A stretch of 36,010 nucleotides of DNA, from positions 1 through 36,010 of the IMG/VR virus record IMGVR_UViG_3300027801_000071; one strand, 5' to 3'. This DNA comes from a virus. Shown piece by piece: positions 3,001-35,114 of this stretch; within the stretch, counting starts at the first letter, position 1; each line of letters opens with the position of its first letter. A model generated the notes under the pieces. The model did not search any database. It had not been told where the DNA came from and worked only from the letters and a program-made list of their open reading frames with translations. A program made the translations under genes and the position numbers.

Positions 3001-5177
3001 ACCCTGGTAGGTTTAATAGAAGAGTATTTGATTCGTTTTCGACTAACGAAACCATTAAACCTACTGACCCAATAAACTTTGATTTATATGTTGATAATTC
3101 AGTCCCCACCTCAACTAATGGGGTATTATTGTCGAGTAGTAAAGCAACATATCCGGAGGTATGGGAGGCATTATATTTGTATGTAGGCGAGTATGTTGAA
3201 TCAGGAATGACGTACTCTGATAGTGGTTCATACGTTACAGATTTCTTTCCAACAATGGATATTAGATTTACAAAAGAAAATGTAAGGGATTTATCGCAAA
3301 TTATAAAAGTTTTTGCAACACAAAAATTTAATAATAACGATTTAAATAGGGCACTCTTCCAACAGACTTTTGAACGTTTCTTATCGGAACAAGTTACATT
3401 TCAAAATAACATGTTAAATCAAATTTTTACGACATTAAATAAAACATTACCATCTGTTAAACAAAGTACTACTCAAGTAAGAATTTCAAAACTTGATGGA
3501 AATGTTAATAAGAATGAGTTATGGTCAACCTTTAAGACTTTTAATGATAGATGGATAGCTGGACAAGATGTTAAAAATAAAACAATGTTTGAACAATTCT
3601 TATTTTTAGATAAAGCCAATAGACCAATCGGAGATGACGTTGTCATTGGTATTGAAGACTTACGATATTTTCTAAAGAATGCTAATTCAACTCAAAGTGT
3701 ATTATCGCTTATGGGACATATATTAGAAAAGAATAATTTTATATTTATGCCTGTTCCATCATATTCTAATTTTTATGGTAGGAATGAAAGAGTTAAGGAG
3801 GGTATGCCTAATCCGGCTTTTAGTGATATCGCGAATAATACTTTTGGAACATTTTTAGAGGTAGATACTCACGGTTCAGAACCTAAATTTTTAGCTATAT
3901 ATGTCGGTAAGGTTTCTGAGACTATAAATACTTCTATTGAAAACGATAATTACTTATTTGGTGATGATTCTTTTGATATTACTCAACCCTCACTATCGGC
4001 AGTAAGAGCTTCTGAGGACGGTGTTACTAATTTTTCTAATCGAAATAAAGTGGTTGCTTTCAATGTAGACTTTGGTACACGAAACCAAAATATGTTTAAG
4101 TCTATAAATATTGATATGGCTCAAAGAAAAAATATCGCACCTACATTTCAAGTAAATCGTGATTTGGGTCAAATGGCTGACGGACAAAAAGTTGCTCAAC
4201 AGACCGCAAATTTATATAACTTCTATAAAAATGCTAGTTATAATTGTAGTGTTGTTTCTATGGGTAATGTTATGATACAACCTACGATGTATTTTAATTT
4301 AAGATATGTTCCGATGTTTTATGGACCATATTTAATTACTAGTGTAACTCACGACATAACGACTAGAGATTTTACCACGACATTTGAAGGGGTTAGGACG
4401 ACTAAATACTCATTACAAATGCCTGATGGATTAATCTCGAGTGTTAACAGAGATATTGTACAAAATTATTTATCAGAAATAAGGAGAATACCAGAACTTG
4501 ATGGTTCAACAGGAGATACAGTTAATCGCTCAAATGCGATTAAAAATAGTTCTGCAACTACAAATAGTAAGAGACAGGGTCAAGAAAATAAATGTATTGC
4601 AGTTCAGAAATTAGATAAGCCATATGTGGCAATGAGTACAACTACATTAAATCAAACTAATTTTAAAAATGGTATTCAACAACTTAGTTTATCTGAGAAT
4701 GTTAAAAAATATATCTTTGGTGTTGGATATGTTGAAACGGGAGTTGGTAAGAATGTGGTAGGTCTTAACTACAACTATTTTAACCTTAAAAATATGTCCC
4801 AAAATGAAAGGTGGACCATAGACTTTACAAACCAAACCTGTGTTAAAGATGGTAATTTTTTAATACCGTACTTATCATTTGAGGACTCAGGAAAATCAAT
4901 TATATTTATGTCAAAAGTATGTTCAGAATATGAACAAATAATAAACGCCTTCTTAGAGAATACTACTATTAATGGTGACTTAGCTAAGAGTTTTACTTAT
5001 ATATGGTACTATACTTTAAGATTTACAACAAGAGATAGGGAATTAGGTGCTGGTAGTAATATAGATGACTCAATAATCGCTTCTGTTAATTTAGATTTAG
5101 AGAAGGATTCAATATCTAAAAAACTATTTAACAAGTCTTATGAGGTCTTCAAACGGAGTATTAATTCATGGGGATAA
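1..5177 (+). CDS. Giant baseplate-hub-like tail protein, 5' truncated, possible C-terminal lysozyme-like domain
   Basis: The frame is open from the first complete codon at base 3, so the gene starts upstream; the TTG at 42 is not a believable start. More than 1,720 residues are visible, rich in Asn, Ser and Thr. Residue numbers below count from that TTG. The first ~1,150 residues match nothing I know. Roughly residues 1180-1480 resemble the gpD/gp27 class of tail hub proteins: a stretch around 'MFYGPYLITSVTHDITTRDF' followed by 'TTFEGVRTT' looks like the closing strands of hub barrels. Near the C-terminus, 'YVETGVGKNVVGLNYNYFNL' (E1565) recalls the Glu-Thr-Gly and Asn-x-Phe-Gly-Ile-Lys motifs of glucosaminidase or transglycosylase domains, but with Phe-Asn-Leu-Lys in place of Phe-Gly-Ile-Lys. 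A tail hub carrying a cell-wall lytic domain would parallel T4 gp27 plus gp5. The hub role is a fair inference; the lytic activity is tentative. Confidence 0.6.
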   Translation, partial: EQLSIFEAELKSELAIDSKSYNITPEGEIVENEDGSTLIAFGNVIKDTNFYTGSFLAKLAKIENTFKEKRETIEKQLSEALAKKIISSDIGLGFNPTINNVLAVICANAEAFYRLMDDTHTAAWDVRDNTSRLAAIIPPEKTFGVDGKNMLDQVSVEGLSDTLKNTKIVYPWPQYFEEEVDEKGDSKYTIKYPGQPQILESIRGWDYSIWPEIQFVEEYLTASLERDKPKININYGNEKQVSKYLGVNSVEFPFDNLPYVNEEYVSFFYEIFERTYLSANYSKVIRNNNFRKTLYNVLADFESVNIKEGLSSSPGLTKILKEFKFNAATFNTYLKSISNNGEGSYYSREVRDIFTQNYIKGYIDIDFGIYSLESMSTSSTEIQSSVDSVAQLEEYIVDTSSNDMTLMDVFPFNNLGWLNKNMSNGESIGSIENANSTTNIMNFNVLKKTIATFNDDTGKNVRYLNRPITYFDYEKNLFSAPNQNTSNNSNSTQYNTNDQVKDYFNNRENKDFYLTESKLDYGTDYNGATNNLVSSQTTSLLNTPYFINALTNGVDNETFSVENPYVGLGYIYLNSLPLPTLSEKYLTRTENYGDTSEELLSNLSLGTSSGSNDKWGDYLFAGLGKFAAIHKTPYLWLLKYGSIWHRYKEDIKGNGDILTGIWGDFNYVNAYDPINDDINKVYSVQNYTGGTVNYVPQKINTVGTQEEFKLMNGFYPKVINDTYKFFTGKSVFINYDNTELNEMFSNGNFKMGKSQKNILNKGYDPDNTDRTMFYESWFQYFDIDGNTSFDEESNKKLLVIPSAGYLKFVQSQRECLNNQGKLSQNIDINNVAIQNGNVRPLWGSSNFGYFNNQWVKKPKTNEYIKVIDTNTDKQNAFNLINNSSDKDYKSIEEIFAIFSKEMLDEFERHFLNFCKKEKDYTQIVFNPSKVNDNEYLGTFNVDYDYNIERVMKTLLFVDKPELTSDPINDVKKISEKQIERFVRLNTEQLGQRDIILKIGNPGRFNRRVFDSFSTNETIKPTDPINFDLYVDNSVPTSTNGVLLSSSKATYPEVWEALYLYVGEYVESGMTYSDSGSYVTDFFPTMDIRFTKENVRDLSQIIKVFATQKFNNNDLNRALFQQTFERFLSEQVTFQNNMLNQIFTTLNKTLPSVKQSTTQVRISKLDGNVNKNELWSTFKTFNDRWIAGQDVKNKTMFEQFLFLDKANRPIGDDVVIGIEDLRYFLKNANSTQSVLSLMGHILEKNNFIFMPVPSYSNFYGRNERVKEGMPNPAFSDIANNTFGTFLEVDTHGSEPKFLAIYVGKVSETINTSIENDNYLFGDDSFDITQPSLSAVRASEDGVTNFSNRNKVVAFNVDFGTRNQNMFKSINIDMAQRKNIAPTFQVNRDLGQMADGQKVAQQTANLYNFYKNASYNCSVVSMGNVMIQPTMYFNLRYVPMFYGPYLITSVTHDITTRDFTTTFEGVRTTKYSLQMPDGLISSVNRDIVQNYLSEIRRIPELDGSTGDTVNRSNAIKNSSATTNSKRQGQENKCIAVQKLDKPYVAMSTTTLNQTNFKNGIQQLSLSENVKKYIFGVGYVETGVGKNVVGLNYNYFNLKNMSQNERWTIDFTNQTCVKDGNFLIPYLSFEDSGKSIIFMSKVCSEYEQIINAFLENTTINGDLAKSFTYIWYYTLRFTTRDRELGAGSNIDDSIIASVNLDLEKDSISKKLFNKSYEVFKRSINSWG

Positions 5178-12434: not shown

Positions 12435-14141
12435 ATGAAAAATAGACAACCTTTTGATTGGATTAATGAAGAATCTATAACGTTTCTTCGCCGAGGGTAT
12501 TTAAGTGAAGGTGAACTACCTTTAGAAAGAATAAGAACAATCGCGGAACATGCAGAGAAACTTTTAGGTATTGAAGGTTTTGCCGATAAATTTTATGGGT
12601 ATATGGGTAAAGGATGGTATTCTTTATCATCGCCAGTATGGGCAAATTTTGGTAAAGTTAGAGGATTACCGGTTAGTTGTTTTGGGTCACACATAAGTGA
12701 CAATATTGAATCAATACTGTACACACAAGCAGAGGTCGGTGAGATGAGTAAAATGGGTGGTGGAACCTCAGGATATTTCGGTAATATTAGAGGACGAGGA
12801 GCTGGTATTACAGACAATGGACATGCTCCTGGAGCGGTACACTTTATGAATCTATTCCAGAGTGTTGTTGACAATATATCTCAAGGAGCAACTCGTAGAG
12901 GTAGGTTTTCACCTTATTTACCTGTTGAACATCCAGACATTATGGAATTTCTTGAAATTGGTACTGAAGGATTCCCTATTCAAGACTTAACACATGCGGT
13001 TACTGTAACTGATAAGTTTATGGAAGAAATGATTGCGGGTGACGATGACAAAAGAAAAATATGGGCTAAAGTTATTCAAAGACGAGGTGAAATGGGTTAT
13101 CCGTATGTTATGTTTACTGATACTATGAATAATAATTCACCTAATGTTTACCAAGATAAAGGTGCTAAGATTTATAATTCAAACCTATGTTCTGAAATTG
13201 CATTACATAATTCAGATGACGAATCATTTGTATGTGTATTATCTTCTATGAATGTTCTACATTATGACGAGTGGAAAGATACGGATGCGGTTCAAACAAT
13301 GGTTTATTTCTTAGATGCGATTGTTACCGAATACTGTAGTAAATTAGAGGAACTAAGGAATAACGGTACGAGAGAAGGTAAATTAGCTTTCTTATATATG
13401 GAAAAGGCTTATAACTTTGCTAAAAGACAAAGAGCCTTAGGTTTAGGAGTATTAGGGTGGCATTCATTATTACAATCTAAGAATTTACCGTTCGATACTA
13501 AAGAAAGTGCTAAATTAAATGTTGAGGTTTTTAAATGTATTAAAGAAAAATCATATCAAGCATCGGAGGAACTTGCCGTGTTATTCGGAGAACCTGAATA
13601 TCTAAAAGGTTATGGTCGAAGAAATGTTACATTAAATGCCATAGCACCAACAACTTCATCAGCATTTATTTTAGGTCAAGTATCTCAATCTATTGAACCA
13701 ATATGGTCAAACTATTATGTTAAAGATGTTGCGAAATCAAAGGTTACTATTAAAAATCCCGTTCTTAAACAATTATTAGTTGAATTAGGTAAAGACACTA
13801 AAGCGGTGTGGAATACCATTAAGAAGCATGATGGTTCAGTACAACACTTAGACTTTTTAAGTGATATACAAAGAGATGTTTTTAGAACATTTGCTGAGAT
13901 TAACCAGTCGTCAATTATTAACCAAGCTGCGGTAAGACAAGATTATATTGACCAATCACAATCACTGAATTTGATGGTATCTCCTGGAATGCCGACTAAA
14001 GATGTAAATAAGTTACATATCGATGCATGGAAATTAGGGGTTAAAACCCTTTATTACCAACACTCTATGAATTCGGCACAAGCGTTTGCTAGAAAAAAAC
14101 TTAACTTAAATGACCTACAATGTGTCGCGTGTGAGGGTTAA
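12435..14141 (+). CDS. nrdA: Class I ribonucleotide reductase large subunit, lacking an ATP-cone
   Basis: The catalytic subunit reduces ribonucleotides to dNTP precursors. At 568 aa it is much shorter than E. coli NrdA (761 aa) because it begins directly at the catalytic domain, without the N-terminal ATP-cone. Active-site residues visible are C82 in 'GLPVSCFG' and C267 in 'FVCVLSSMN' (the redox pair), N250/C252/E254 in 'NSNLCSEIA' (radical Cys and its partners), 'APTTSSAFILGQVSQSIEP' in the barrel, the paired Tyr of 'KTLYYQHSMNSA' that passes the radical, and the C-terminal shuttle pair C563/C566 in 'LQCVACEG'. It is downstream of nrdB, reversing the T4 order, and a strong terminator follows. 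Confidence 0.95.
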   Translation: MKNRQPFDWINEESITFLRRGYLSEGELPLERIRTIAEHAEKLLGIEGFADKFYGYMGKGWYSLSSPVWANFGKVRGLPVSCFGSHISDNIESILYTQAEVGEMSKMGGGTSGYFGNIRGRGAGITDNGHAPGAVHFMNLFQSVVDNISQGATRRGRFSPYLPVEHPDIMEFLEIGTEGFPIQDLTHAVTVTDKFMEEMIAGDDDKRKIWAKVIQRRGEMGYPYVMFTDTMNNNSPNVYQDKGAKIYNSNLCSEIALHNSDDESFVCVLSSMNVLHYDEWKDTDAVQTMVYFLDAIVTEYCSKLEELRNNGTREGKLAFLYMEKAYNFAKRQRALGLGVLGWHSLLQSKNLPFDTKESAKLNVEVFKCIKEKSYQASEELAVLFGEPEYLKGYGRRNVTLNAIAPTTSSAFILGQVSQSIEPIWSNYYVKDVAKSKVTIKNPVLKQLLVELGKDTKAVWNTIKKHDGSVQHLDFLSDIQRDVFRTFAEINQSSIINQAAVRQDYIDQSQSLNLMVSPGMPTKDVNKLHIDAWKLGVKTLYYQHSMNSAQAFARKKLNLNDLQCVACEG

Positions 14142-14240: not shown

Positions 14241-14702
14241 ATGGCAGATAGTAAAACATACGGAGTATTTTTTCCTTTTAGGGATAGTTTACGAGGAAAC
14301 TACTTAAGATTAACTCAATCTCCTGATGAAGAGATAAGGACGGACTTGTTACATTTAATATTAACAAGAAAAGGTAGTAGGTATTTTTTACCTGATTTTG
14401 GGACTCGTATATATGAATTTATATTCGAACCGATGGATGGACCTACCTTCGATGCTATTAAGGCAGATGTTAGACAAGCCGTGGATAAGTTTATTCCTAA
14501 TCTACAAATCAATGATATCACGATAAAACCGTATCTTGAATCCGAACCATTACCTGGTGAAATAAATTATGATGAATTAGAAGGTGAAATCTATAGAGTT
14601 GCAGGACAAGGTACAGAAGAGTACACTGCAAAGTTAAGAATTGACTATTCTATCGCTAATGGTACGTTTTCATCTAAAGATTTTGTTATCATTAATATTT
14701 AA
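14241..14702 (+). CDS. 25: Baseplate wedge protein gp25 (GpW/gp25 family)
   Basis: gp25 is the small wedge component linking the baseplate to the tail sheath start in contractile tails. The diagnostic segment 'LTRKGSRYFLPDFGTRIYEF' followed by Ile-Phe-Glu-Pro-Met aligns with T4 gp25 'TTRKGSRPFDPEFG' and its following Leu-Phe-Glu-Asn-Met. The C-terminal half, with 'AVDKFIPNLQINDITIKP', matches the final sheet of the family. The length is 153 aa against 132 in T4; the extra residues are mostly a loop around residues 105-125. The Glu-Pro-Arg of T4 and T6SS TssE is replaced by Ile-Pro-Asn. Only six bases separate it from the gp6 gene. Confidence 0.95.
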   Translation: MADSKTYGVFFPFRDSLRGNYLRLTQSPDEEIRTDLLHLILTRKGSRYFLPDFGTRIYEFIFEPMDGPTFDAIKADVRQAVDKFIPNLQINDITIKPYLESEPLPGEINYDELEGEIYRVAGQGTEEYTAKLRIDYSIANGTFSSKDFVIINI

Positions 14703-14708
14703 TAGTAT

Positions 14709-16547
14709 ATGGCTAATCGTAAAATATCCTACACAGACAGAGATTTTCAGTCCTTAAGACAGGAACTGGTAAATTATACTCAGCAGTATTACCCTGATTT
14801 AATTGGTAATTTTAATGACGCATCGATTTATTCGGTGTTTATGGACTTAAATGCCGCTATAGGTGATAACTTACATTATCACATGGACCGTAGTATTCAA
14901 GAGACTGTATTACAATATGCACAACAAAAGTCGTCAATATATAATATAGCGAGAACATATGGATTAAAGATACCGGGAAACCGACCATCAATCGCTTTAG
15001 TTGACGTATCGATTACCGTTCCTGCCTTGGGTGACCAAGAAGATGAGAGATATTTAGGAACTATGAGAGCCGGCTCACAATTTATTGGTGCGGGTCAGGT
15101 TTTTGAAAATTCTAACGATATTGAATTTAGTTCACAGTATAATAGTGAGGGATATCCTAATCGTACTAAGATACCAAATTTTGATTCGAATAATAGACTT
15201 GTTAATTATACTATGACCAAACGAGAGGTGGTCGTTAATGGGTTAACTAAGACATTTAAGAAGGTTATTAATAATAATGATGTTAAACCTTTCTTCGAAT
15301 TTTTCTTACCTGAAAAAAATGTTATAAGTATAACTTCAATAATACAAAAAGATGGTGTCAGCTATCAATCACCTCCAACATACGATGAATTTATTAATTC
15401 AAAAAGTAAGTGGTATGAAGTAGACGCACTAGCGGAGTCTAAAATATTTGTTGAAGACCCGACAAAACCTGCGGACCAACCAGGGATTAAAGTAGGTAAA
15501 TATATTGAAACAGAAAATAGATTTGTTTCGGAATATACTCCTGAAGGTTATTGTAAGGTTAATTTTGGTGGTGGTACTACGACACCCGAAGAACAACTAC
15601 AAGAATTTACAAAAACAGGTATTCCTTTAAGAATACAGGATTATCAAAATAATATAGGGTTAGGTTTAACCGTAAAGGCGAACACAACCTTATTTGTACA
15701 ATATAGAATAGGTGGTGGTAAATCTTCGAATGTTGGAGTTGATGTTATAACCCAATTTGGTACTACATACTTTGATGTTAATGGGCCATCGAATATTATT
15801 AATCAAAATGTTATTGAAAGTTTAAGGTCTACTAATATTACTGCCGCGATTGGTGGTGGTGATTTACCTACAACTGAAGAAGTTAGAAATATGGTATCTT
15901 TTAATTTTTCATCACAAAAAAGAGCGGTCACCGTTAGTGATTATAACTCTTTAGTTAGAACAATGCCGAGTAGATACGGGGCACCTGCTAAGGCATCGAT
16001 TACTGAAGAAGATAATAAGATTAAAATTGAAATTCTATCATACGATACTCAGGGTAAATTAACCGAATCCGTTTCAAATACATTAAAACAAAATATCGCA
16101 AATTATTTATCACATTATAGAATGATTAATGATTATATTTCAATAACTACTGCAAATGTTGTGGATTTAGAATTTGAACTTTCAGTGGTTATGGACTCCA
16201 CACAAAATCAGGGTCAGATAATTACTAATATTATAAATTCAATCGATAGTTATTTTTCCCCACAAAAACAACAATTAGGTTCTAATGTTAATGTGTCTGA
16301 TGTTAGAAGAATAGTTCAAGATATTCCTGGTGTGATATCCTTAGCTGACTTAAAAGTCTTCAATAAAGTTGGAGGAAGATACTCAAATTCTCAAACTTCT
16401 CAAAGATATTCAAATACAGATACTAAGCAAATTCAGTTAATTGACGATACTATTTTTGCTCAACCAAACCAAGTGTATCAAATCAGATTCCCTGATAATG
16501 ACATTAAGGTAAGAGCTAAGTCGCTTAAAAATGTCGACTTCTCTTAA
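14709..16547 (+). CDS. 6: Baseplate wedge protein gp6 (baseplate J family)
   Basis: This 612-aa protein matches the gp6/gpJ wedge protein (660 aa in T4), which dimerises to build the inner baseplate ring. The N-terminus 'KISYTDRDFQSLRQELVNYT' and 'FNDASIYSVFMDLNAAIGDN' are typical of the family's first helical domain. The C-terminal ~130 residues have the alpha/beta pattern of the ring-forming domain, including 'QQLGSNVNVSDVRRIVQDIP' and Gly-Val-Ile-Ser, as in gpJ ('lG..v..s.i...i..i.GV'). Gene order gp25-gp6 is the same as in many contractile phages and T6SS clusters. It ends with a 71-base gap before the next gene. Confidence 0.92.
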   Translation: MANRKISYTDRDFQSLRQELVNYTQQYYPDLIGNFNDASIYSVFMDLNAAIGDNLHYHMDRSIQETVLQYAQQKSSIYNIARTYGLKIPGNRPSIALVDVSITVPALGDQEDERYLGTMRAGSQFIGAGQVFENSNDIEFSSQYNSEGYPNRTKIPNFDSNNRLVNYTMTKREVVVNGLTKTFKKVINNNDVKPFFEFFLPEKNVISITSIIQKDGVSYQSPPTYDEFINSKSKWYEVDALAESKIFVEDPTKPADQPGIKVGKYIETENRFVSEYTPEGYCKVNFGGGTTTPEEQLQEFTKTGIPLRIQDYQNNIGLGLTVKANTTLFVQYRIGGGKSSNVGVDVITQFGTTYFDVNGPSNIINQNVIESLRSTNITAAIGGGDLPTTEEVRNMVSFNFSSQKRAVTVSDYNSLVRTMPSRYGAPAKASITEEDNKIKIEILSYDTQGKLTESVSNTLKQNIANYLSHYRMINDYISITTANVVDLEFELSVVMDSTQNQGQIITNIINSIDSYFSPQKQQLGSNVNVSDVRRIVQDIPGVISLADLKVFNKVGGRYSNSQTSQRYSNTDTKQIQLIDDTIFAQPNQVYQIRFPDNDIKVRAKSLKNVDFS

Positions 16548-25298: not shown

Positions 25299-26207
25299 AT
25301 GGCATTAGGAACATACGGAACAGTGAGACCCGCAGATATGTCTCCCGAAGATGTGGAGATTATCTTAAATTATACTCCTTCAAGAGACGTTACAACGAAC
25401 TTTGTATTAACAAAATTGAACGCCGCAGATGTGTTAACACCATATTTTCATAGTTCAACCACAGGAGGAAACTCCGATGTGGAAATATTAGGTGGATTAT
25501 ACAATTTAAAACTACCTGCGGAGGAGTTTAATAAAATTGGAATATATACCCTATATATAAGACCTGTAGAAATAAGGACGACAATAACTGATTGTGGGGT
25601 ACTTTCATCGCTACCTAACGTTAAGGGTATTATTGTAGATTTAAATGGTGTTCCTGAACAATATAGAAATAGATTTATTAATCAGGGTCTTGTTGGTTAT
25701 CGTATTGAATATTTAAATAGTGATGGTACTAAAATACCTAATTTTTATAGAGTAGTTACATCTTCTTTCTATTGTGAACCTGTAGTTACAAATTTAACTA
25801 ATAGTTCACAAAAATCAATTAGATATCGATATGTTGAGAGTGGTAGTGATTTAATTTTTTGTACGGTTTCACCTTCGAGTGCTCCGTCTAATAAAGCAAA
25901 CGCCACACCATTTATTGGTCAACCAAATCAGAAAATTGTAATGACTAATACTTTTTTTAACCCTATTAGTGTCGATGTTGAATTAGCGGAACATGATATA
26001 GACACATTGGCAATTGCACTTTACGGTAATCAAACGAAAAGTATGGAAGATGGTATCTATACCTTATATGATAGTAGTCTTAATATTTATAAGCAATACA
26101 ACTTATACGAAATCCGTGATGAATTTAATAATTTACTTTATGAGGTTCGTCAAGATAGAGACGATAATATTGATTTCAGTAAAAATTTCAATAACATAAT
26201 TAACTAA
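25299..26207 (+). CDS. Putative tail/baseplate protein of unknown family (302 aa)
   Basis: The start 'MALGTYGTVRPADMSPEDVE' follows an A-rich leader five bases after the previous stop. The protein has a mixed N-terminal part, a central beta-rich part ('GIYTLYIRPVEIRTTITDCG'), and a C-terminal ~80 residues with 'KSMEDGIYTLYDSSLNIYKQ' followed by a charged segment. I know no family with these motifs. It lies two bases upstream of the 987-aa gp7-like gene, which it may assist in the wedge. Position resembles that of T4 gp8, but no gp8 sequence features are visible. Confidence 0.75.
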   Translation: MALGTYGTVRPADMSPEDVEIILNYTPSRDVTTNFVLTKLNAADVLTPYFHSSTTGGNSDVEILGGLYNLKLPAEEFNKIGIYTLYIRPVEIRTTITDCGVLSSLPNVKGIIVDLNGVPEQYRNRFINQGLVGYRIEYLNSDGTKIPNFYRVVTSSFYCEPVVTNLTNSSQKSIRYRYVESGSDLIFCTVSPSSAPSNKANATPFIGQPNQKIVMTNTFFNPISVDVELAEHDIDTLAIALYGNQTKSMEDGIYTLYDSSLNIYKQYNLYEIRDEFNNLLYEVRQDRDDNIDFSKNFNNIIN

Positions 26208-26209
26208 TA

Positions 26210-29173
26210 ATGGCTAGCAATAAAAAATACTTTTATCCTGCATCGCCACCAAGTGCTGATGAATCATTCTCACCTAACTTAGTTGGGCTTCAAGTAGTAG
26301 ATGGTGGGGGATTAACTCAAGGTAACTTTGAGTTTAGTACAAATATTGTTGAAAAAGTTAATAGAACATTTGATACGGGAGTATTCTCAAGTCCAATCTC
26401 TTTATCTGATATTGATGTAACCAGTATTGAAGAGTCTAAGGCTATAGCGATTAAAAATTACGGGGTATATCCTAATTACGATATTAGTCAGGTAACTAAT
26501 TACGCTCTTTATGGTTCATTACAAAAAAGATTATCTGCGTCAATTACAAAGATAATTAATTTTTTCCCCGCATCAATAGAGGTAAATAAAGTCTTAATAA
26601 AAGATTATTCATCGGCTAATACTGCCAGTAATATAACTTTTAATGTTACTGAACAAATAACGACATTTACAATGGACGTTACTAGATTTATTAATCCTTT
26701 TGAAATTGACTATTCGGTCAATGCTCCACGTAATTTAATTTTAAGACCATACCCAACTAGCCCTTTAAGGGATTTGACTACGACATATAACAAATATGCG
26801 TTATACGTTAATAATATGGAAATTGAATATCCATTAGTTAATTTCACCCCAACTACAAGTCTTTCAGCTGGAACTATAACGGTAAGTGTCCAAGGTAATC
26901 CGTTTAGTGGGGTTAGTAGTACTACTAATACATTAATTCTAAGACCAAGTTCGTTTAATACTGCATTTGCATTTAAAGAACCTTTCGATGAAGTAGAGGA
27001 TTTTTTACTGAACCGTTTTAGTAGTCCAGCATATACTGCGTCATTCGATTTAGTTGAGGAAAATGACAGGGGTCAATTTATTAAATCTAAGAAAAAGGTT
27101 ACTTGGCCTAAAAATGGTGTGTGGAACTTAGATATCATTACTGAAAATTTTGATAGATATCTAAAAGAAGTTAGTCAAATAGCGGAGGTATTGGATAGAT
27201 ATAAGACCGATTTAATTGTTAGGTTCTTAACTACTGGAGCATTTAAAGACTTTGATACTGGAGATAATAAAGTTGAAAAGGTATTACAGATTTATGGTAG
27301 AAGTTTTGATGAGTCTAAGAAATTTATAGATGCATTATCATTCATGAATTCTGTCCACTACACCCCACAGAATGATATACCGTCCGCATTATTACAGAAT
27401 TTAGCTCAGACGTTAGGATGGGACACTAATATTTCTCCTATAACTAATGAGAATTTTCTAACCTCAATTTTTGGGTCCGAAGATAAATCAATATTCTCCG
27501 GATTTCAAAATAACCTAACGCCTAATGAGTTAAATTATCAATATTATCGAAATTTAATTTTAAATTCATCTTACCTATTTAAGTCTAAAGGTACTCGACA
27601 TTCAATTGAGGCAATACTAAGAATGGTTGGAGCACCTAAAGATTTAATTGAGTTTAATGAGACTGTTTATATTGCTGATGGACCAATTAATGTTGATAGG
27701 TTCGAAGGAGAATTTTTAAAAATATCCGGAGGTACTAAAGTGGATAATGTACCCGCGTTAGACCCTTCAGTAATTTACAATATTCAAGGAACTACATACA
27801 CTGGATTTACCACCTCAACTTATGTGTCATTAACCAATGCCGTTAGAGGGGATTATCCTATGGATGTAAACGGGTATCCAAAACGTCCGATAACTAATAA
27901 TGAATTCTTTTTTGAAAAGGGTTCCGGTTGGTATATACAAACACCTGACCACAGAGCGATTGAAAAATTAGATATTTCTAACTCTACATTTACGGGCTCT
28001 AATCCTGATGTCCAAACTACTTTAGAGACTTTTACTTACGGTCAAAAATATTTTGACAGATTCAGAGACTTTCCTTATATGAATTTAGGTTTTGGTTTGA
28101 CAAAGACTATTGATAATAATAAATCATGGGATGATACAGAAACGGGACTAAGAAGAAACCGAGATGGGGCATATAACGCATATTATAAGGTGTTTGATGA
28201 AAAGTTAGTCTTAAATGCTAAAAATATTGAATTATATCTTAATATGGCTCAAGGTATTACATACGATATTTGGAGAATGTCTCGAAGATATGACTATCCT
28301 TTTCCTTCGAGTGGTTTGACATCGCCTTATCCATCTCCGAATGGTAAAGATTGGACAATTATAAATCCATTACCTAAGGAAAGGACTTTCTTTGAATTCG
28401 CCCAGACTTTTTATACTACATTAATTAATGTTAGGAATCGTCAGACGATAAGTGATGGGGCCGCGAATAGTTACCCTACACTACAATCGATATATTGGAA
28501 ATATCTACAATCTGCATCAGCAGTAAATATACCATCTAATCAGTATACCTACCAAAAAATGATTGATTTCACTTTAGGTATTGGAGATTATTGGACACAA
28601 TTAGTTGAGCAAATGATACCTGCATCGACAATATGGATGGGTGGTCAAAAGATGGTTAATAATGTACTACAAAGACAAAAACACGTTTGGAGAAGACAAA
28701 GAGGATGTGACATCATTCTTGTTCCTTGTGTTCCATGTATGTATCACGGTGAATTATTTTTAAATGACTGTATTGACCAAACATTGACTTGTGATGTAGA
28801 TATTACTAATACAGAAATGCCAGGAATATTAAATAATAGTATTAATCAATGTGTTGTAAAATCAGGTTATACTATTACTGACTGTGTGCAGACATCACTA
28901 TTAAGTGAGTGGTATATTGATGTTAGGTTAGATTCGACAATATTAGTACAAGAATTATTTTATACGGGGTACGGTTCATCGGATGTTCCAACAACTATTC
29001 AGTGGATAACTGCATTGAATGATAAGTTGTCGTATTTATATCAAAGTGGATTGAATTATACTATAAGTAATGATAATATTTTAACAGTCAGTAATACTGA
29101 TTGTTATGATAATTTCACAAATAAAACTTTAACGGTTAATGTTGGGGTAAATATACAAATTAATTGTAATTAA
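26210..29173 (+). CDS. Large tail protein with gpI/gp7-like region, candidate wedge protein
   Basis: At 987 aa this is close to T4 gp7 (1032 aa). Residues ~395-480 contain 'LLQNLAQTLGWD' and then 'YYRNLILNSSYLFKSKGTRH' with Ser-Ile-Glu-Ala-Ile-Leu-Arg. That resembles the P2 gpI tail family, where a helical segment with a Lys-Gly-Thr turn precedes a helix pairing with the wedge core; gpI is the counterpart of T4 gp7. A later part has 'EQMIPASTIWMGGQKMVNNV' and a basic 'KHVWRRQRGCD'. The last ~100 residues, with a Phe-Tyr-Thr-Gly motif at 917, form a domain also found in the next gene's product. Its stop overlaps the adhesin start (TAATG). The wedge role is an inference from motif and position. 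Confidence 0.72.
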   Translation: MASNKKYFYPASPPSADESFSPNLVGLQVVDGGGLTQGNFEFSTNIVEKVNRTFDTGVFSSPISLSDIDVTSIEESKAIAIKNYGVYPNYDISQVTNYALYGSLQKRLSASITKIINFFPASIEVNKVLIKDYSSANTASNITFNVTEQITTFTMDVTRFINPFEIDYSVNAPRNLILRPYPTSPLRDLTTTYNKYALYVNNMEIEYPLVNFTPTTSLSAGTITVSVQGNPFSGVSSTTNTLILRPSSFNTAFAFKEPFDEVEDFLLNRFSSPAYTASFDLVEENDRGQFIKSKKKVTWPKNGVWNLDIITENFDRYLKEVSQIAEVLDRYKTDLIVRFLTTGAFKDFDTGDNKVEKVLQIYGRSFDESKKFIDALSFMNSVHYTPQNDIPSALLQNLAQTLGWDTNISPITNENFLTSIFGSEDKSIFSGFQNNLTPNELNYQYYRNLILNSSYLFKSKGTRHSIEAILRMVGAPKDLIEFNETVYIADGPINVDRFEGEFLKISGGTKVDNVPALDPSVIYNIQGTTYTGFTTSTYVSLTNAVRGDYPMDVNGYPKRPITNNEFFFEKGSGWYIQTPDHRAIEKLDISNSTFTGSNPDVQTTLETFTYGQKYFDRFRDFPYMNLGFGLTKTIDNNKSWDDTETGLRRNRDGAYNAYYKVFDEKLVLNAKNIELYLNMAQGITYDIWRMSRRYDYPFPSSGLTSPYPSPNGKDWTIINPLPKERTFFEFAQTFYTTLINVRNRQTISDGAANSYPTLQSIYWKYLQSASAVNIPSNQYTYQKMIDFTLGIGDYWTQLVEQMIPASTIWMGGQKMVNNVLQRQKHVWRRQRGCDIILVPCVPCMYHGELFLNDCIDQTLTCDVDITNTEMPGILNNSINQCVVKSGYTITDCVQTSLLSEWYIDVRLDSTILVQELFYTGYGSSDVPTTIQWITALNDKLSYLYQSGLNYTISNDNILTVSNTDCYDNFTNKTLTVNVGVNIQINCN

Positions 29174-32100
29174 TGGCTATTAAATATTTTCAATTAGAGC
29201 AATCATCAAGTATCTCATCGCCGATAACTGGAGATACCGTAGTTTTAAAATGGGACGATACGATTATTCCTGCAGGAAATACTCAATCTTCTACCTTAAG
29301 TCTTTTAAGTTCGTATCCTAATTCCACATGGAACTTTAGGTCACGTATATGGACCCTTACTGATTTAGGTTCTACTACGCAATCATTTGATACTGAAATG
29401 TTATCTAATGAGCCGTGGAGTTTTGATACTACAGGTCGAACAGTATATGTCGGATTTAGTTTTGGTATTGATGTAACCATTTTCGCTCAAAACTATATTC
29501 AAATTAAAGGGGTTACACCATTTAATTCGCCAAGATATTCTACAAATTTTTACAGTGCATCTACATTCAATGATACTTCAAAGGTCATTGGTTCAGATAC
29601 TAATAGGTATGATTTTGTTTCTTTGGTTAGTCAAGATGATTATACACATATTACTAACTCAGGTGTTACTCAGTACAATTTCGCAATCGCAACATCGATT
29701 ACCTCATCTATAGTCGGAGGTGTTAATACTTTAATCCCTTATTCTGCAACTACGGCTAGAACTTATTTTAATGGTTTATATGATGGTTGGGTATCGGCAT
29801 CTGATGATTGTGACGGTAATCCATTTACGTCAGTAAACGATGTGATATATAGTGGTGATATGGTCGATAGAACGAAGTCGTATTCATCAATTTATGGAGG
29901 ACCTTGTTTAAGATTAAATAATGTACAAACACCATATAGTGGTAACACTTCATTAGGTGATTTATCTTCATTATCTAATATTATTGATACAATATATTCT
30001 GACTGTTCGACATGTGAAAGTACTAATCCTTATTTTAATACATATACATTTAGCGCTAAGACTACCTGTGAAGGTGTCGATGCTATTGGACAGGGTATTA
30101 TAGTTAGCGCCAATACCATTAATTGGGGTAGTCCTGATGGGTCTGGTGATATTGGAGCGTATTATATACAAGCCAATGGATTATGTTTTGGAGGAGGAGT
30201 AGGTGATATGGTTCAAATTAATAATACTTCCCCTACTTACGTAATTACTAATGTATATAGTGGTTGTTCTGATTGTGTTAACGTGCAGAATCCATTAGAT
30301 ACTTATTATTATTTTTCAGCCTGTACTGGAGGTGATGTTTATAGGTTTAATCGATTCGACTACGAGCAAGATTTTAATGTACCAACAATTGGGCAGGTTT
30401 ACTTAATAGAGAATGTTACAGGAATGGATGATGGATGTTACACTCTTATTACTTCTAATGTAACATTTATCGATATAGTTAATTACCCTCAAAATAGTAC
30501 TTCAACCTTTATTGGTTACGGTTGTAGTGATGTATTATGTTCCCCTAGTAGAAGTACCGTACTTGCGGATAAATTAAATAGTTGTAATATTAATAGCCAA
30601 AGTCAAAAAGTGTTTGTCTTTTATGATGGAACTTCTTTAACTGAAACGAGTGTTTCAGTGGCGTCTGAATCTATTCGTTCATGGTACAATACTAAAGTAA
30701 TTAATGGTGATTTATTAGCTAATAATTTATATGAGGGAATTATTGGAGACAATAGTAATAATGGTGAGAATTGGTTATGGTGGTCAGTTTACCCATATTT
30801 AGGTTCACTTACTGGAGGTACGGTCGATGGTGGTACAACAAATATCACAGAATTTAATAGTGCTGTAAATAATTCGATATATGACAGTCAATGGTGTAAA
30901 TCATCAAATCTAACGTTATGTGTACCTAATAGTATTGAGTTTAATGACGAAAATCAGGCGAATGCAACGTATAGAAGGATTAATCGAGGTTATACATTAA
31001 ATGGTAGTTATGGGACAAATGATACAAGAAGTCAAGGGGTACCTTTTAACCATAATGATTTAGATTTTTCATCAACATCTGGACCGGGTACTTTTTCAGG
31101 TGAGGAAACAAACTATATTGTAATTACTATAATTAATGAATCAGATGGGGAGGTTGGGTTATATCATGGTGCAGCTAACGCTACTACGTCACTTTATACT
31201 CTTCCTTTTGAATTATATGGTACTCAATGGACTAATTCCGCAATATTAGAATATACTGATAGATTTCAATATGACTATGAGTCTTATATAGGTGTTTGGG
31301 ATGAGATACGACAAAGTGGTGGTACAATAAATGGATTAGTCTACCCTGTTGCCAATAAAAGTTATGGGGGTACGGCTAATTTTATACAACACTCGGTGGC
31401 AAGTATTGAAGGTGAGACTATTTCTTCCTCTAATTTTTTAACTAAATATGGGGATAATATAACAATAGTTGGTCCACAACTTTTAAATTTAAGTGCACTT
31501 ACCATAACTAATGTATACTCAGGACTTACAGGTACCACCGCTTATCAATCTTTACCTAGTACATATCAAAACGGTTCTGGTCTTAAACATTTTGGATTTT
31601 TTGTTGACCCAACCGTTAATGATTATACTGAAGCGGTGGTTACTACATCATTAAATAACTTCTTATTTAATATAAACATACCATTAAATGTGCTTTATGT
31701 TACACCAGGAAGTCGACAAGTTAACGAGGTTTATAATCTAAGTGGAGACTGTTATACCGTTGACCAAGTAAGTATTGCAACATCAGAGACCGTTATAACT
31801 CCAACCAATCAGATGGGTCCGTATGTTGACTGTACTATTTGTGAGAGTACGGGATGTTTTTCAGGAATCACCAATGGAGCTTATAGGTATATTGATTGCT
31901 GTGGTATATTTCAAGAGGGTGTAGAATCATATACGCCTGTATGTGTGGATATTTCTGAACTGTATTCAGGAATAACTATTAGTGGTAATCAATGTGTTCC
32001 AATTTGTGATGAAGGGCCACTTGCATATACTTTTAATGTTACAGGTACTTGTGTTACGGGTGTTGGAATTATAGAAATAAATCCATTATATGGTACTTCA

Positions 32101-34797
32101 CCATATACCATTGTTAATACATCGGCAAGTACCTCACCTCTACTAGTTACTCAAACGGGTTACAGTCCATTTATATGGAATGGTGTTTCTGAAGGTAGTT
32201 ATGTTTTTAGTTTAAGTGATAGTTCAGGTGGTATTAATCAATCCATAATAATCAACGTTAATGTTGAAGGATGTTTTACTGCTGAAATAACAAGTTTTTC
32301 AGGTACAACATGTGGTGATTTAACATCAGGACAACTTACGGTAACAAGCAATTCTATTTCGTCACCATATCAGTTTGATTTATATAATACTGTGGCCGGT
32401 TTAATTACAGGTAATAATAGTTCATTATCAACTTATCAGTTTACTTCATTAGTTCCTGGTACGTATTGGGTAGTGGTTACCGATTTTGGTGGTTCAACCG
32501 CACAGACAAATAATGTGGTTGTTGTTCCAAGTACGCCAGTCACATACCTTATAGATACTTTTCCTGATTCTCCATGTGGTTCAGGATTTGGAAGTGCTAC
32601 AGTAATTAATATCACTGGTGGTACACCACCATATACATATTTATGGTCTGATGGTCAAACAAACAGTACCGCAACAGGACTAACTCAAGGTAATTGGAGT
32701 GTTACTGCTACCGATAGTAATGATTGTAGTACCCTTAATCCTTTCATTATTGGTTTAGCTAATCCATTAGGGGTAGTTAGTAATATACCGACACCCGCAG
32801 ATTGTTTTACATGTAATGGTAACATGAGTGTTACAATTTCCGGAGGTACTTCACCGTATACATATCAAGGTAGTAACGGTCAAGTTTTAAGTTCAAATAA
32901 TTTAACTTATATATTAACCGGATTATGTTCAGGTGAGCATTCGATGATAGTGACAGATGCTGGTGGTTGTAGTCTAACTACATATGGTACGGTTATTTCT
33001 ACCGCTGGATTTACAGTTGTAAGTGTTAATACTATAAATTCGAGTTGTAATAATAATGGGTCTATCTCATTAGATATTACTGCATTACAAGGAATGGTTA
33101 CTTATAGTATTACTGATAGTGGTGGTTCATCACAATCGGTAACGAATAGCTCACAATCACACACTTTTAGTAACTTAGTATCGGATACATATACCGTTAG
33201 TATTCAAAGTGGTGGTAACTGTGAATATACCGTTCAAAAAGTTATAAATAATGTTGAGAAGTTTACTGTAAGTACTACGGTTTATAGTGGTACTTGTGGT
33301 GAAAATAACGGATATGTTGTGGCAACGGTTAATATAGGTTCACAAGTTCTAGCCTACCCATTTGATTATGTTTTAACAGATGTTAATAATGGTCAAGTTG
33401 TATATCAACAAACTGATTTAGCCCAAAATACTATTACGGTTAATAATTTATCTCCAGGATATTATCAACTTGACGTTAATGATAATGGAAACTGTATGGT
33501 TACTACTTCATTTTCGGTTATTCAGTCAAGTGGGGTTAATTTTGGATTAACTAAGACTGAATGTGTTTCAGGAAATAATGGAACCGCAACGATTAACATA
33601 TTTGATGGTATTGCTCCTTTTGTTATTACTTGGTCAAGTAATGTGCCTTCAGGTCAGTCAGGTCTTACCGTTTTAGGATTATCTGGAGGTACATATACTG
33701 CAACAGTTACTGATGCTAATTCATGTACACAATATAGTAATATTACATTAAATTGTACTAATCAAACGGTGTCTTGTTATGAGTTGACTAAGATTTGTGA
33801 AAACGATTTTATAACCACAGTTGGGGATGTTAGAGATTTTGGTTCAATGGTAAATGAGGCCTATCTCGATTTAATAGTTGGACATATGAACTGTACTTTA
33901 AATAGTGCGGTTTTTTATACGATTATTGACTTATCGGGAGGTACTATCCCAACTTATCATATTGACCAATCATTTTATACTGGAACTACTTTATCTGATT
34001 ACCCTTCAGCACAAGATTGGTTAAATTCAGTTAATCAGATATTATTAACGATACCGGAAATTAACGATTTTACTTTAGATATTGATAATAATCAAATTAT
34101 CCTTACTTCTGATTGTGATAAGTTACGAGATGTTTATTTTAGGTTAAGTACTAGAATAGATTTAGATATCTGTTGTATTGATATTCCAACTCCAACCCCA
34201 ACTCCAACACCTGAACCAACACCAACACCTGAACCAACACCAACACTAACACCAACACCAACACCAACAAGAGAGCCTTTAGCCACTTGTATTGAATCTC
34301 TGACATTTGTTGTTGAATATAATCGAAATGGATTAAACGGAGCTCCTTGCTATGATGGTCATTCATGTAGTAGAGCGGTGTTTGATATCTTAGCAAATAA
34401 TGTGTCGTTTGGTCAGGTTAACTTAAATAATAATGGAGGACTATATGACGGTCTAATTAATGGTGGAAGTTATCCACCTAACTACCCTAGTTATCCTGGA
34501 GCTACCGCACAGGACAGGTATTATACCTTAACAATAACATCACAACAAGCTCAGGATATTGCCAACAACTCTCCTGATGGGTTTATTGACTTTTCGTTTG
34601 ATTGTGCATGTATATGGTCAGGTGGTAGTCAAAATTGTGTCGGTAATCCTATAGGTACTCCTTCTTGTCATACTGATATTACTTGGGTTAGATTAATAAA
34701 GGATATGGGGTTAGCCACTGAAGAAGTAATGTATAATGATTGCCCTAATGGTAACTTTATTGAGGATTTCGACCCTTGTGGTACGACACCGGCATAA
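29173..34797 (+). CDS. Giant tail adhesin with SprB-type repeats and Pro-Thr linker (1874 aa)
   Basis: Probable host-recognition protein. Residues 1-~470 are beta-rich with Cys-pair motifs (CSTC at 278, CSDC at 365). At ~477-840 'KVFVFYDGTSLTETS' and 'NYIVITIINESDG' suggest a divergent von Willebrand A-like fold. A third Cys pair (CTIC at 887) precedes about seven tandem modules at ~960-1535; the clearest have 'GGTPPYTYLWSDGQTNSTAT' and 'GGTSPYTYQGSNGQ', ending Val-Thr-Ala-Thr-Asp-x-Asn-Asp-Cys. These are SprB repeats, named after the flavobacterial gliding adhesin. Residues ~1570-1672 repeat the C-terminal domain of the preceding protein. A Pro-Thr/Pro-Glu linker (~1672-1700) leads to a Cys-rich C-terminal domain. 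No signal peptide is present, as expected for a virion protein. It is translationally coupled to the 987-aa gene. Confidence 0.82.
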   Translation: MAIKYFQLEQSSSISSPITGDTVVLKWDDTIIPAGNTQSSTLSLLSSYPNSTWNFRSRIWTLTDLGSTTQSFDTEMLSNEPWSFDTTGRTVYVGFSFGIDVTIFAQNYIQIKGVTPFNSPRYSTNFYSASTFNDTSKVIGSDTNRYDFVSLVSQDDYTHITNSGVTQYNFAIATSITSSIVGGVNTLIPYSATTARTYFNGLYDGWVSASDDCDGNPFTSVNDVIYSGDMVDRTKSYSSIYGGPCLRLNNVQTPYSGNTSLGDLSSLSNIIDTIYSDCSTCESTNPYFNTYTFSAKTTCEGVDAIGQGIIVSANTINWGSPDGSGDIGAYYIQANGLCFGGGVGDMVQINNTSPTYVITNVYSGCSDCVNVQNPLDTYYYFSACTGGDVYRFNRFDYEQDFNVPTIGQVYLIENVTGMDDGCYTLITSNVTFIDIVNYPQNSTSTFIGYGCSDVLCSPSRSTVLADKLNSCNINSQSQKVFVFYDGTSLTETSVSVASESIRSWYNTKVINGDLLANNLYEGIIGDNSNNGENWLWWSVYPYLGSLTGGTVDGGTTNITEFNSAVNNSIYDSQWCKSSNLTLCVPNSIEFNDENQANATYRRINRGYTLNGSYGTNDTRSQGVPFNHNDLDFSSTSGPGTFSGEETNYIVITIINESDGEVGLYHGAANATTSLYTLPFELYGTQWTNSAILEYTDRFQYDYESYIGVWDEIRQSGGTINGLVYPVANKSYGGTANFIQHSVASIEGETISSSNFLTKYGDNITIVGPQLLNLSALTITNVYSGLTGTTAYQSLPSTYQNGSGLKHFGFFVDPTVNDYTEAVVTTSLNNFLFNINIPLNVLYVTPGSRQVNEVYNLSGDCYTVDQVSIATSETVITPTNQMGPYVDCTICESTGCFSGITNGAYRYIDCCGIFQEGVESYTPVCVDISELYSGITISGNQCVPICDEGPLAYTFNVTGTCVTGVGIIEINPLYGTSPYTIVNTSASTSPLLVTQTGYSPFIWNGVSEGSYVFSLSDSSGGINQSIIINVNVEGCFTAEITSFSGTTCGDLTSGQLTVTSNSISSPYQFDLYNTVAGLITGNNSSLSTYQFTSLVPGTYWVVVTDFGGSTAQTNNVVVVPSTPVTYLIDTFPDSPCGSGFGSATVINITGGTPPYTYLWSDGQTNSTATGLTQGNWSVTATDSNDCSTLNPFIIGLANPLGVVSNIPTPADCFTCNGNMSVTISGGTSPYTYQGSNGQVLSSNNLTYILTGLCSGEHSMIVTDAGGCSLTTYGTVISTAGFTVVSVNTINSSCNNNGSISLDITALQGMVTYSITDSGGSSQSVTNSSQSHTFSNLVSDTYTVSIQSGGNCEYTVQKVINNVEKFTVSTTVYSGTCGENNGYVVATVNIGSQVLAYPFDYVLTDVNNGQVVYQQTDLAQNTITVNNLSPGYYQLDVNDNGNCMVTTSFSVIQSSGVNFGLTKTECVSGNNGTATINIFDGIAPFVITWSSNVPSGQSGLTVLGLSGGTYTATVTDANSCTQYSNITLNCTNQTVSCYELTKICENDFITTVGDVRDFGSMVNEAYLDLIVGHMNCTLNSAVFYTIIDLSGGTIPTYHIDQSFYTGTTLSDYPSAQDWLNSVNQILLTIPEINDFTLDIDNNQIILTSDCDKLRDVYFRLSTRIDLDICCIDIPTPTPTPTPEPTPTPEPTPTLTPTPTPTREPLATCIESLTFVVEYNRNGLNGAPCYDGHSCSRAVFDILANNVSFGQVNLNNNGGLYDGLINGGSYPPNYPSYPGATAQDRYYTLTITSQQAQDIANNSPDGFIDFSFDCACIWSGGSQNCVGNPIGTPSCHTDITWVRLIKDMGLATEEVMYNDCPNGNFIEDFDPCGTTPA
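32050..33775 (+). repeat. Tandem array of about seven SprB-like modules (protein level)
   Basis: Modules of roughly 70-90 residues recur with the pattern Ser-Pro-Tyr (or similar), a beta hairpin, 'G.Y.V.V.D..GC'. They begin near bases 32090, 32345, 32610, 32840, 33060, 33340 and 33600. DNA identity between copies is low, so this is an old, diverged duplication, not a recent expansion. Confidence 0.75.
34186..34270 (+). repeat. Pro-Thr tandem repeat (CCAACA hexamer type)
   Basis: About 85 bases of CCAACN-type hexamers encode alternating Pro-Thr with two Pro-Glu-Pro units. The segment ACACCTGAACCAACACC occurs twice in tandem. It forms a stiff linker between the shared domain and the C-terminal domain of the adhesin, and its length could change by strand slippage. 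Confidence 0.9.
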
Positions 34798-34871: not shown

Positions 34872-35114
34872 ATGTCGCAAGTAATAATAAGATTAACTTT
34901 AAGTTCTAATGCCATAGGTCCCTTTGATATATACACAGGGTCAACATCTACTACTGCATTAATGACTGGACAAACAAGAGACCAAATAATTGCGGGGGTA
35001 GTTTTAACCTTACCTAGTAGCCCTACTGGTATCCAATATACTATACTTGTAGTTAGTCTACAAAGTGATTGTAATGATGAAACAGTTTCTAAAACAGTAG
35101 TTGTTTATGACTAA
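34872..35114 (+). CDS. Small protein of unknown function after the adhesin (80 aa)
   Basis: The product looks like a single small beta-sandwich: 'QVIIRLTLSSNAIGPFDIYT' at the N-terminus, a Gly-Thr-Ser-rich middle, and 'QYTILVVSLQSDCNDETVSK' near the end, finishing Val-Val-Val-Tyr-Asp. There is one Cys and no membrane segment. A 74-base gap with the AT-rich stretch AGTATTTATATAAT precedes it, so it may have its own promoter. It lies between two fibre-type genes and may be a fibre accessory or capping protein, on context only. I know no matching family. Confidence 0.65.
   Translation: MSQVIIRLTLSSNAIGPFDIYTGSTSTTALMTGQTRDQIIAGVVLTLPSSPTGIQYTILVVSLQSDCNDETVSKTVVVYD

Follow-up and report, generated by a model that had tools for sequence, protein, structure and literature searches.

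Tandem arrays of the BACON domain, an Ig-like domain associated with Bacteroidetes, are found in a tail-located protein of crAss-like phages, for which a role in host binding has been suggested (PMC6949934). The array of the prototype BACON lineage is stable and consists of eight domains that are distinct from the bacterial ones (PMC6949934). On the bacterial side, the grappling hook protein GhpA of Aureispira is T9SS-secreted and heptameric (PMC11205867). The open-licence literature that we searched contained no description of SprB repeats in phages, of the lineage presented below, of a fixed set of seven modules or of their genomic context; two papers in it mention SprB repeats, and neither deals with phage proteins.

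We analysed a virus record from IMG/VR, 36,010 bases long (the window), in which a phage tail protein built from SprB-type adhesin repeats had been predicted from the sequence, and found that this protein carries a fixed array of seven such modules.

Architecture of the array protein

The ORF encodes 1874 amino acids, as the original prediction had stated, and its start codon shares one base with the end of the 987-aa gene that precedes it. The top Pfam family of the whole protein was the SprB repeat PF13573, which matched four stretches with an E-value of 1.8e-14. The protein and its parts are as follows.

29173..34797, + strand: SprB-array protein, 1874 aa; PF13573 53.5 bits; syntenic orthologue in 80/80 viral loci found through the array
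29173..32013, + strand: N-terminal extension (aa 1-947), in close relatives only according to alignment and BLAST; members of ~710 aa lack it
32014..32271, + strand: module M1 (aa 948-1033); own clade, support 0.985; no match to PF13573 alone
32272..32535, + strand: module M2 (aa 1034-1121), from the family alignment; own clade, support 0.991
32536..32766, + strand: module M3, canonical SprB repeat (aa 1122-1198); PF13573 34.1 bits alone; invariant Cys1135/Cys1185
32767..33009, + strand: module M4, near-canonical SprB repeat (aa 1199-1279); invariant Cys1211/Cys1266; clade support 0.961
33010..33261, + strand: module M5 (aa 1280-1363); PF13573 21.2 bits; invariant Cys1292/Cys1350
33262..33537, + strand: module M6 (aa 1364-1455), from the module HMM; Cys1375/Cys1441 in 98-100%; no match to PF13573 alone
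33538..33762, + strand: module M7 (aa 1456-1530); PF13573 23.1 bits; 15/16 in one clade, support 0.98
33763..34188, + strand: C-terminal alpha/beta domain (aa 1531-1672), shared by all full-length family members
34189..34797, + strand: P/T-rich linker and last domain, in close relatives only; 53-57% identity in L005-L012

The HMM built from the phage modules detected exactly seven modules in this ORF. The predicted "about seven tandem modules", two of them near-canonical (M3 and M4), was therefore accurate, and the predicted span of 32050-33775 was close to the boundaries given by the family alignment (32014-33762). A structure prediction had been proposed as a check, and the AlphaFold model, made with 44 aligned sequences, showed seven beta-sandwich domains followed by an alpha/beta C-terminal domain with a mean pLDDT of 81.8. 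The pTM of the array was low (0.34), as is expected for a flexible chain.

An hhalign comparison (probability 96.9, E 1.8e-10) showed homology between the C-terminal domain and the C-terminal end of the neighbouring 987-aa protein, which suggests a common docking or assembly domain. Most family members were 705-1100 aa long, and many of 705-770 aa consisted of the seven modules and the C-terminal domain, with a start at or near module 1. The 947-aa N-terminus and the region after the C-terminal domain are accessory. A piece of about 400 aa of the N-terminal extension (aa ~455-880) was present in the window, L005, L010, L012 and L017, and was swapped for a P/T-rich linker in L006, L007 and L009. 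The same region (about 30535-31812) contains KVFVFYDGTSL, which may recall a VWA motif.

Distribution in metagenomes

The search of IMG/VR with the array found at least 177 contigs, from which 80 viral loci were fetched. The array ORF followed a homologue of the 987-aa gene in 80/80 of these loci, and a gene for a 302-aa protein, of 68-94% identity in these loci, preceded the 987-aa gene wherever the contig reached that far. Since these loci had been chosen by the array itself, the draw was repeated with the 302-aa gene alone. This second search found at least 575 contigs; 80 were fetched, 50 of which had enough downstream sequence, and four of the 50 were left out because the next ORF ran off the contig. 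A seven-module ORF was present downstream in 46/46 of the testable contigs, usually directly after. It was found directly in 43, while L149 had a weak first module and the array of L133 and L134 was located one gene further.

By these two draws, the seven-module array is a core gene of a large, abundant and uncultured phage lineage. No array gene was found in 50,697 phage records, and phage isolate records contained no homologue of the array gene, the 302-aa gene or the 987-aa gene of the window; the 987-aa family gave one weak stretch (12%) in Microcystis phage Mel-JY01.

Genomic neighbourhood and host

Genes of the window that lie upstream of the array on the same strand include the following.

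14241..14702, + strand: gp25-like baseplate wedge protein; PF04965 44.8 bits; phrog_261 E 2.8e-17
14709..16547, + strand: gp6-like baseplate wedge protein; phrog_219 E 2.8e-21
25299..26207, + strand: 302-aa protein, at 68-95% identity the best-conserved marker in the lineage
26210..29173, + strand: 987-aa neighbour, conserved in the lineage immediately before the array gene; 45-82% identity, 80 viral loci

Upstream on this strand were genes for SSB, a UvsX-like recombinase, an exonuclease, DnaB helicase and both ribonucleotide reductase subunits, then the gp25 and gp6 genes. These were followed by closely packed large genes, the last three being the 302-aa, 987-aa and array genes. The nearest annotated isolate by the gp6-like wedge protein was Flavobacterium phage immuto (26.7% over 99%), which has a like order of gp25, gp6 and large proteins, then genes with tail fibre and tail spike annotations, and which gave no SprB match. 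Judged by gene order, the array gene sits in a baseplate/fibre gene cluster. Its designation as a tail protein in the original prediction is upheld only by synteny with the gp25 and gp6-like genes upstream on the same strand, while no PHROG tail family matched the ORF. The 987-aa protein received no family assignment from PHROG, Pfam or the PDB; its predicted fold, with a mean pLDDT of 54.5, was of too low quality for an assignment and had no Foldseek match at E <= 0.001.

Three other ORFs of the window were noted. The ORF at 34872-35114 (80 aa) corresponds to the N-terminal domain only of a gene that reaches ~900 aa in L007 and L012, where the full-length counterparts consist mostly of P/T repeats. 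The large subunit of ribonucleotide reductase (12435-14141) was nearest to those of Firmicutes phages, with 64% to Sporosarcina phage Lietuvens, an affinity that contrasts with those of the tail and terminase genes. The 1711-aa ORF at the start of the window (42-5177) had no Pfam or PHROG match.

The host is probably a member of the Bacteroidota. Shine-Dalgarno-like motifs preceded 1% of 389 starts (2% in shuffled sequences), and the same absence was seen in phage immuto. Bacteroidota-type promoters were somewhat more frequent than expected in two larger contigs, with 3/50 and 3/32 intergenic regions versus 0.4 expected; in the tail region itself there was no excess of this motif. Both features fit a Bacteroidota host and are not proof of it. 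The nearest isolate terminases, each at about 26%, belonged to phage immuto and to Microcystis phage Mel-JY01, and by terminase and baseplate together the nearest isolates were a phage recorded on Microcystis and Flavobacterium phages. The 302-aa protein was not found in 395 genomes of Bacteroidota, the phylum of bacterial locus L090, in a search made without a positive control.

Microcystis phage Mel-JY01 (PP395634.1) itself has a Bacteroidota-type promoter in 3/8 or 4/11 intergenic regions, depending on the ORF cut-off, for an expectation of about 0.1; the numbers are small. It also has an annotated "major paralogous domain" protein, and the record of Microcystis as its host may be worth re-examining.

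Proposed role of the array

We consider it fairly probable that the ORF encodes a structural protein associated with the tail or baseplate, in a T4-like contractile-tailed lineage with a Bacteroidota host, and that its rod of seven SprB modules, together with the C-terminal domain, scaffolds or mediates adsorption. The seven Ig-like modules would form a rod that projects from the baseplate or makes up a fibre segment, and the C-terminal domain would anchor this rod at the tail. An Ig-like domain is ~4 nm long, and the rod would therefore hold the adhesive parts at a fixed distance of about 25-30 nm. In this way it would mediate or scaffold adsorption to the Bacteroidota host. The specificity would most likely reside in the accessory domains, which are joined by P/T-rich linkers and differ from one close relative to the next; in the window these would be mainly the first 947 aa. 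We infer the presence of the array protein in the virion, the orientation and oligomeric state of the rod and its contact with a receptor.

A tail-anchored rod is favoured because the C-terminal domain is shared with the neighbouring protein and because the array is more variable than its neighbours. Comparison of distant members showed identities of 31-39% for the array versus 68-80% for the 302-aa protein and 45-58% for the 987-aa protein.

The same rod could also be a whisker, a strut or a fibre spacer, with a structural or sensing role and no contact with the receptor, adsorption being left to other proteins. The invariant number and order of the modules are as expected of a spacer, the specificity could be held by the variable accessory domains or by neighbouring genes, and similar single Ig-like modules are present in neck whiskers and in proteins that decorate the capsid, for which reason a role other than adsorption may be envisaged. 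However, the array diverged faster than its neighbours across the lineage, as exposed surfaces do, and the corresponding gene cluster of phage immuto encodes tail fibres and spikes. We therefore regard a rod without receptor contact as rather unlikely, and prefer one that takes part in adsorption.

Assignment of the modules to the SprB family

Each module was tested singly against PF13573, as had been proposed with the original prediction. M3 scored 34.1 bits, above the gathering cut-off of this curated Pfam family (28 bits), while M4, M7 and M5 were weaker (27.4, 23.1 and 21.2 bits, respectively) and M1, M2 and M6 gave no match. The score of M4 rose to 28.3 bits when it was tested with its neighbours. 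The match is not due to chance, since 14 unrelated control genomes gave no PF13573 match and 44/44 aligned family members matched at E <= 0.001 (best E 2.6e-27).

These modules could nevertheless be ordinary phage Ig-like domains, the SprB label being an Ig cross-match that implies no special link with Bacteroidota adhesins. Because PF13573 spans 37 residues and the Wac protein of RB16, whose modules are I-set/Ig_3 and which served as our control for cross-matching, collects 42 bits on it, the profile can indeed cross-match other Ig domains. In the PDB, the array family profile also matched a protein of neck whiskers at E 1.6e-5 and the decoration protein 5lxk at E 4e-4, and VIA-align of the array ranked mixed FN3/Ig proteins of many kinds, near-tied and with GhpA not listed, a result that is uninformative on the family. 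On the other hand, the window protein and its relatives matched SprB best and not I-set/Ig_3, and the I-set, Ig_3 and Ig_2 profiles gave no match to the window protein at E <= 1. The phage-module HMM scored 45-60 bits on most bacterial SprB modules, with lower scores for some modules of divergent bacterial proteins, versus 20-31 bits on the Wac modules. The cysteine pair was present in 96% of 74 bacterial SprB modules and, by phage module, in 100% of M3 to M5, 94% of M6, 75% of M2, 44% of M7 and 0% of M1, whereas it was absent from the I-set modules of Wac. The first solved structures in the Foldseek search with the predicted array were three pieces of GhpA (E 7e-18 to 2e-15). With Wac as the control, the Pfam matches, the module HMM and the cysteine pair all disfavour generic I-set domains, and we hold an ordinary Ig origin of the SprB signal to be improbable. 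The array modules are members of the SprB repeat family, as had been predicted, with the cysteine pair kept in M3 to M6. The outcome named beforehand as refuting the prediction, an absence of SprB matches or matches to generic Ig-like folds alone, was not observed.

Another phage protein contains two modules of the SprB type and is encoded at 5154-6803 of L102 and by similar ORFs in many loci of the family. Its cysteine pair is missing in L102 and L103, and in L102, L103 and L149 it adjoins a conserved protein of ~750 aa that starts with MGYIIKDTAALVNSKLTDAGRKRISEG or similar.

Relation to secreted host adhesins

The rod might contact the gliding adhesins or the track of the host module to module, adsorption then using the moving machinery, or the repeats might have passed from a phage tail to a bacterial adhesin; we take either to be very unlikely. 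The predicted alternative, mimicry of the adhesin in order to bind the same surface glycans, found no backing, as none of the tests made points to glycan binding by SprB repeats or by the array.

The array might also be a host-type cargo adhesin that the infected cell exports by its T9SS to alter its own surface. Phage records do carry such genes: the SprB adhesin of the 642-kb LR756502 combines a T9SS type B sorting domain with a start that resembles a signal peptide. TIGR04131, the T9SS sorting domain found in the bacterial protein of L090 and in the LR756502 adhesin, was however absent from the window, L043 and L020 proteins; a sub-threshold match to Por_Secre_tail in the window protein fell within module 6. 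The starts, read by eye, were MAIKYFQLEQ... for the window protein and module 1 for the minimal members, so that a signal peptide would have no space in the latter. The array is moreover a core gene within a tail cluster. On the missing sorting domain and the synteny we reject a secreted cargo adhesin as highly unlikely.

The LR756502.1 adhesin (4705-9729 of L013) is a host-type ORF of 1675 aa with 14 SprB modules in this phage record, and it adjoins topoisomerase- and FMN-synthase-like ORFs.

Order and age of the modules

The comparison of module phylogeny with host adhesins that the original prediction had proposed was made on 200 modules and 76 columns, with 16 phage modules per position and 74 bacterial SprB modules. 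M1, M2 and M4 formed pure clades (support 0.96-0.99), the M7 clade contained 15/16, the M3 clade all 16 plus one other module, and the M5 and M6 clades 12/16 each. The bacterial modules lay mostly apart, 61/74 of them forming a separate clade with the modules of the LR756502 adhesin (support 0.92). As each position forms its own clade or nearly so, the seven modules most likely existed, in their fixed order, before the lineage diversified.

A recent loan of the array from the present host is rejected on this tree as extremely improbable, for even though M3 is about as near to bacterial SprB modules (mean identity 33.7%) as these are to each other (34.9%), the module positions form their own clades or nearly so, most bacterial modules stand apart, and the best bacterial loci are just 26-34% identical to the array. 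The prediction that the phage had borrowed a host adhesin scaffold thus fails for a recent acquisition and stands as a possible ancient event, in either direction of transfer. Given a lineage-wide core gene of seven modules with position-specific clades, any host origin would be ancient; a tree of 76 columns resolves neither the deep branches nor the direction of transfer.

Comparison with known systems

The UniProt entry A0A6J5LD72, "SprB repeat [uncultured Caudovirales phage]", has 714 aa, the length of a minimal member, and was 29% identical to the array over its full length (E 4.4e-53). By this match it very probably belongs to the same family, for which it provides a database annotation only. 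The neck whiskers of RB16 Wac (PDB 9occ) and the decoration protein 5lxk have a PYTYxW ... GxYxVTVTDS motif similar to that of the array. They differ from it by their one to three modules, the lack of the cysteine pair and their location at other virion sites, and Wac is of the I-set/Ig_3 type.

GhpA of Aureispira (PDB 9flp, 9flw, 9fly) is likewise a chain of Ig-like domains and a Bacteroidota surface protein, but its identity to the array is 16-17% and it takes part in bacterial predation. SprB and the related T9SS adhesins of gliding Bacteroidota have repeats of the same family, PF13573, including the cysteine pair. A signal peptide, a C-terminal T9SS sorting domain and many repeats in variable number characterise these adhesins, whereas the phage array always has seven modules and no sorting domain.

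The closest precedent is the BACON array, which is also a tandem array of an Ig-like domain associated with Bacteroidetes (PMC6949934). The BACON domain is however PF13004 and not SprB, and its phages are gut crAss-like phages, while the present lineage is aquatic and has T4-like baseplate genes. Unlike the BACON array, the seven SprB modules are followed by a conserved C-terminal domain common to a neighbouring protein. A core component of the tail region has been identified and linked to a bacterial adhesin family, in a lineage that comprises hundreds of metagenomic contigs but no isolate. The conserved gene pair provides a marker for finding an isolate, and the ~710-aa members are tractable for structural and binding work. 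Together with the BACON array of crAssphage, the SprB array is a second case of a fixed tandem array built from an Ig-like domain family typical of Bacteroidota surface proteins in a probable Bacteroidota phage.
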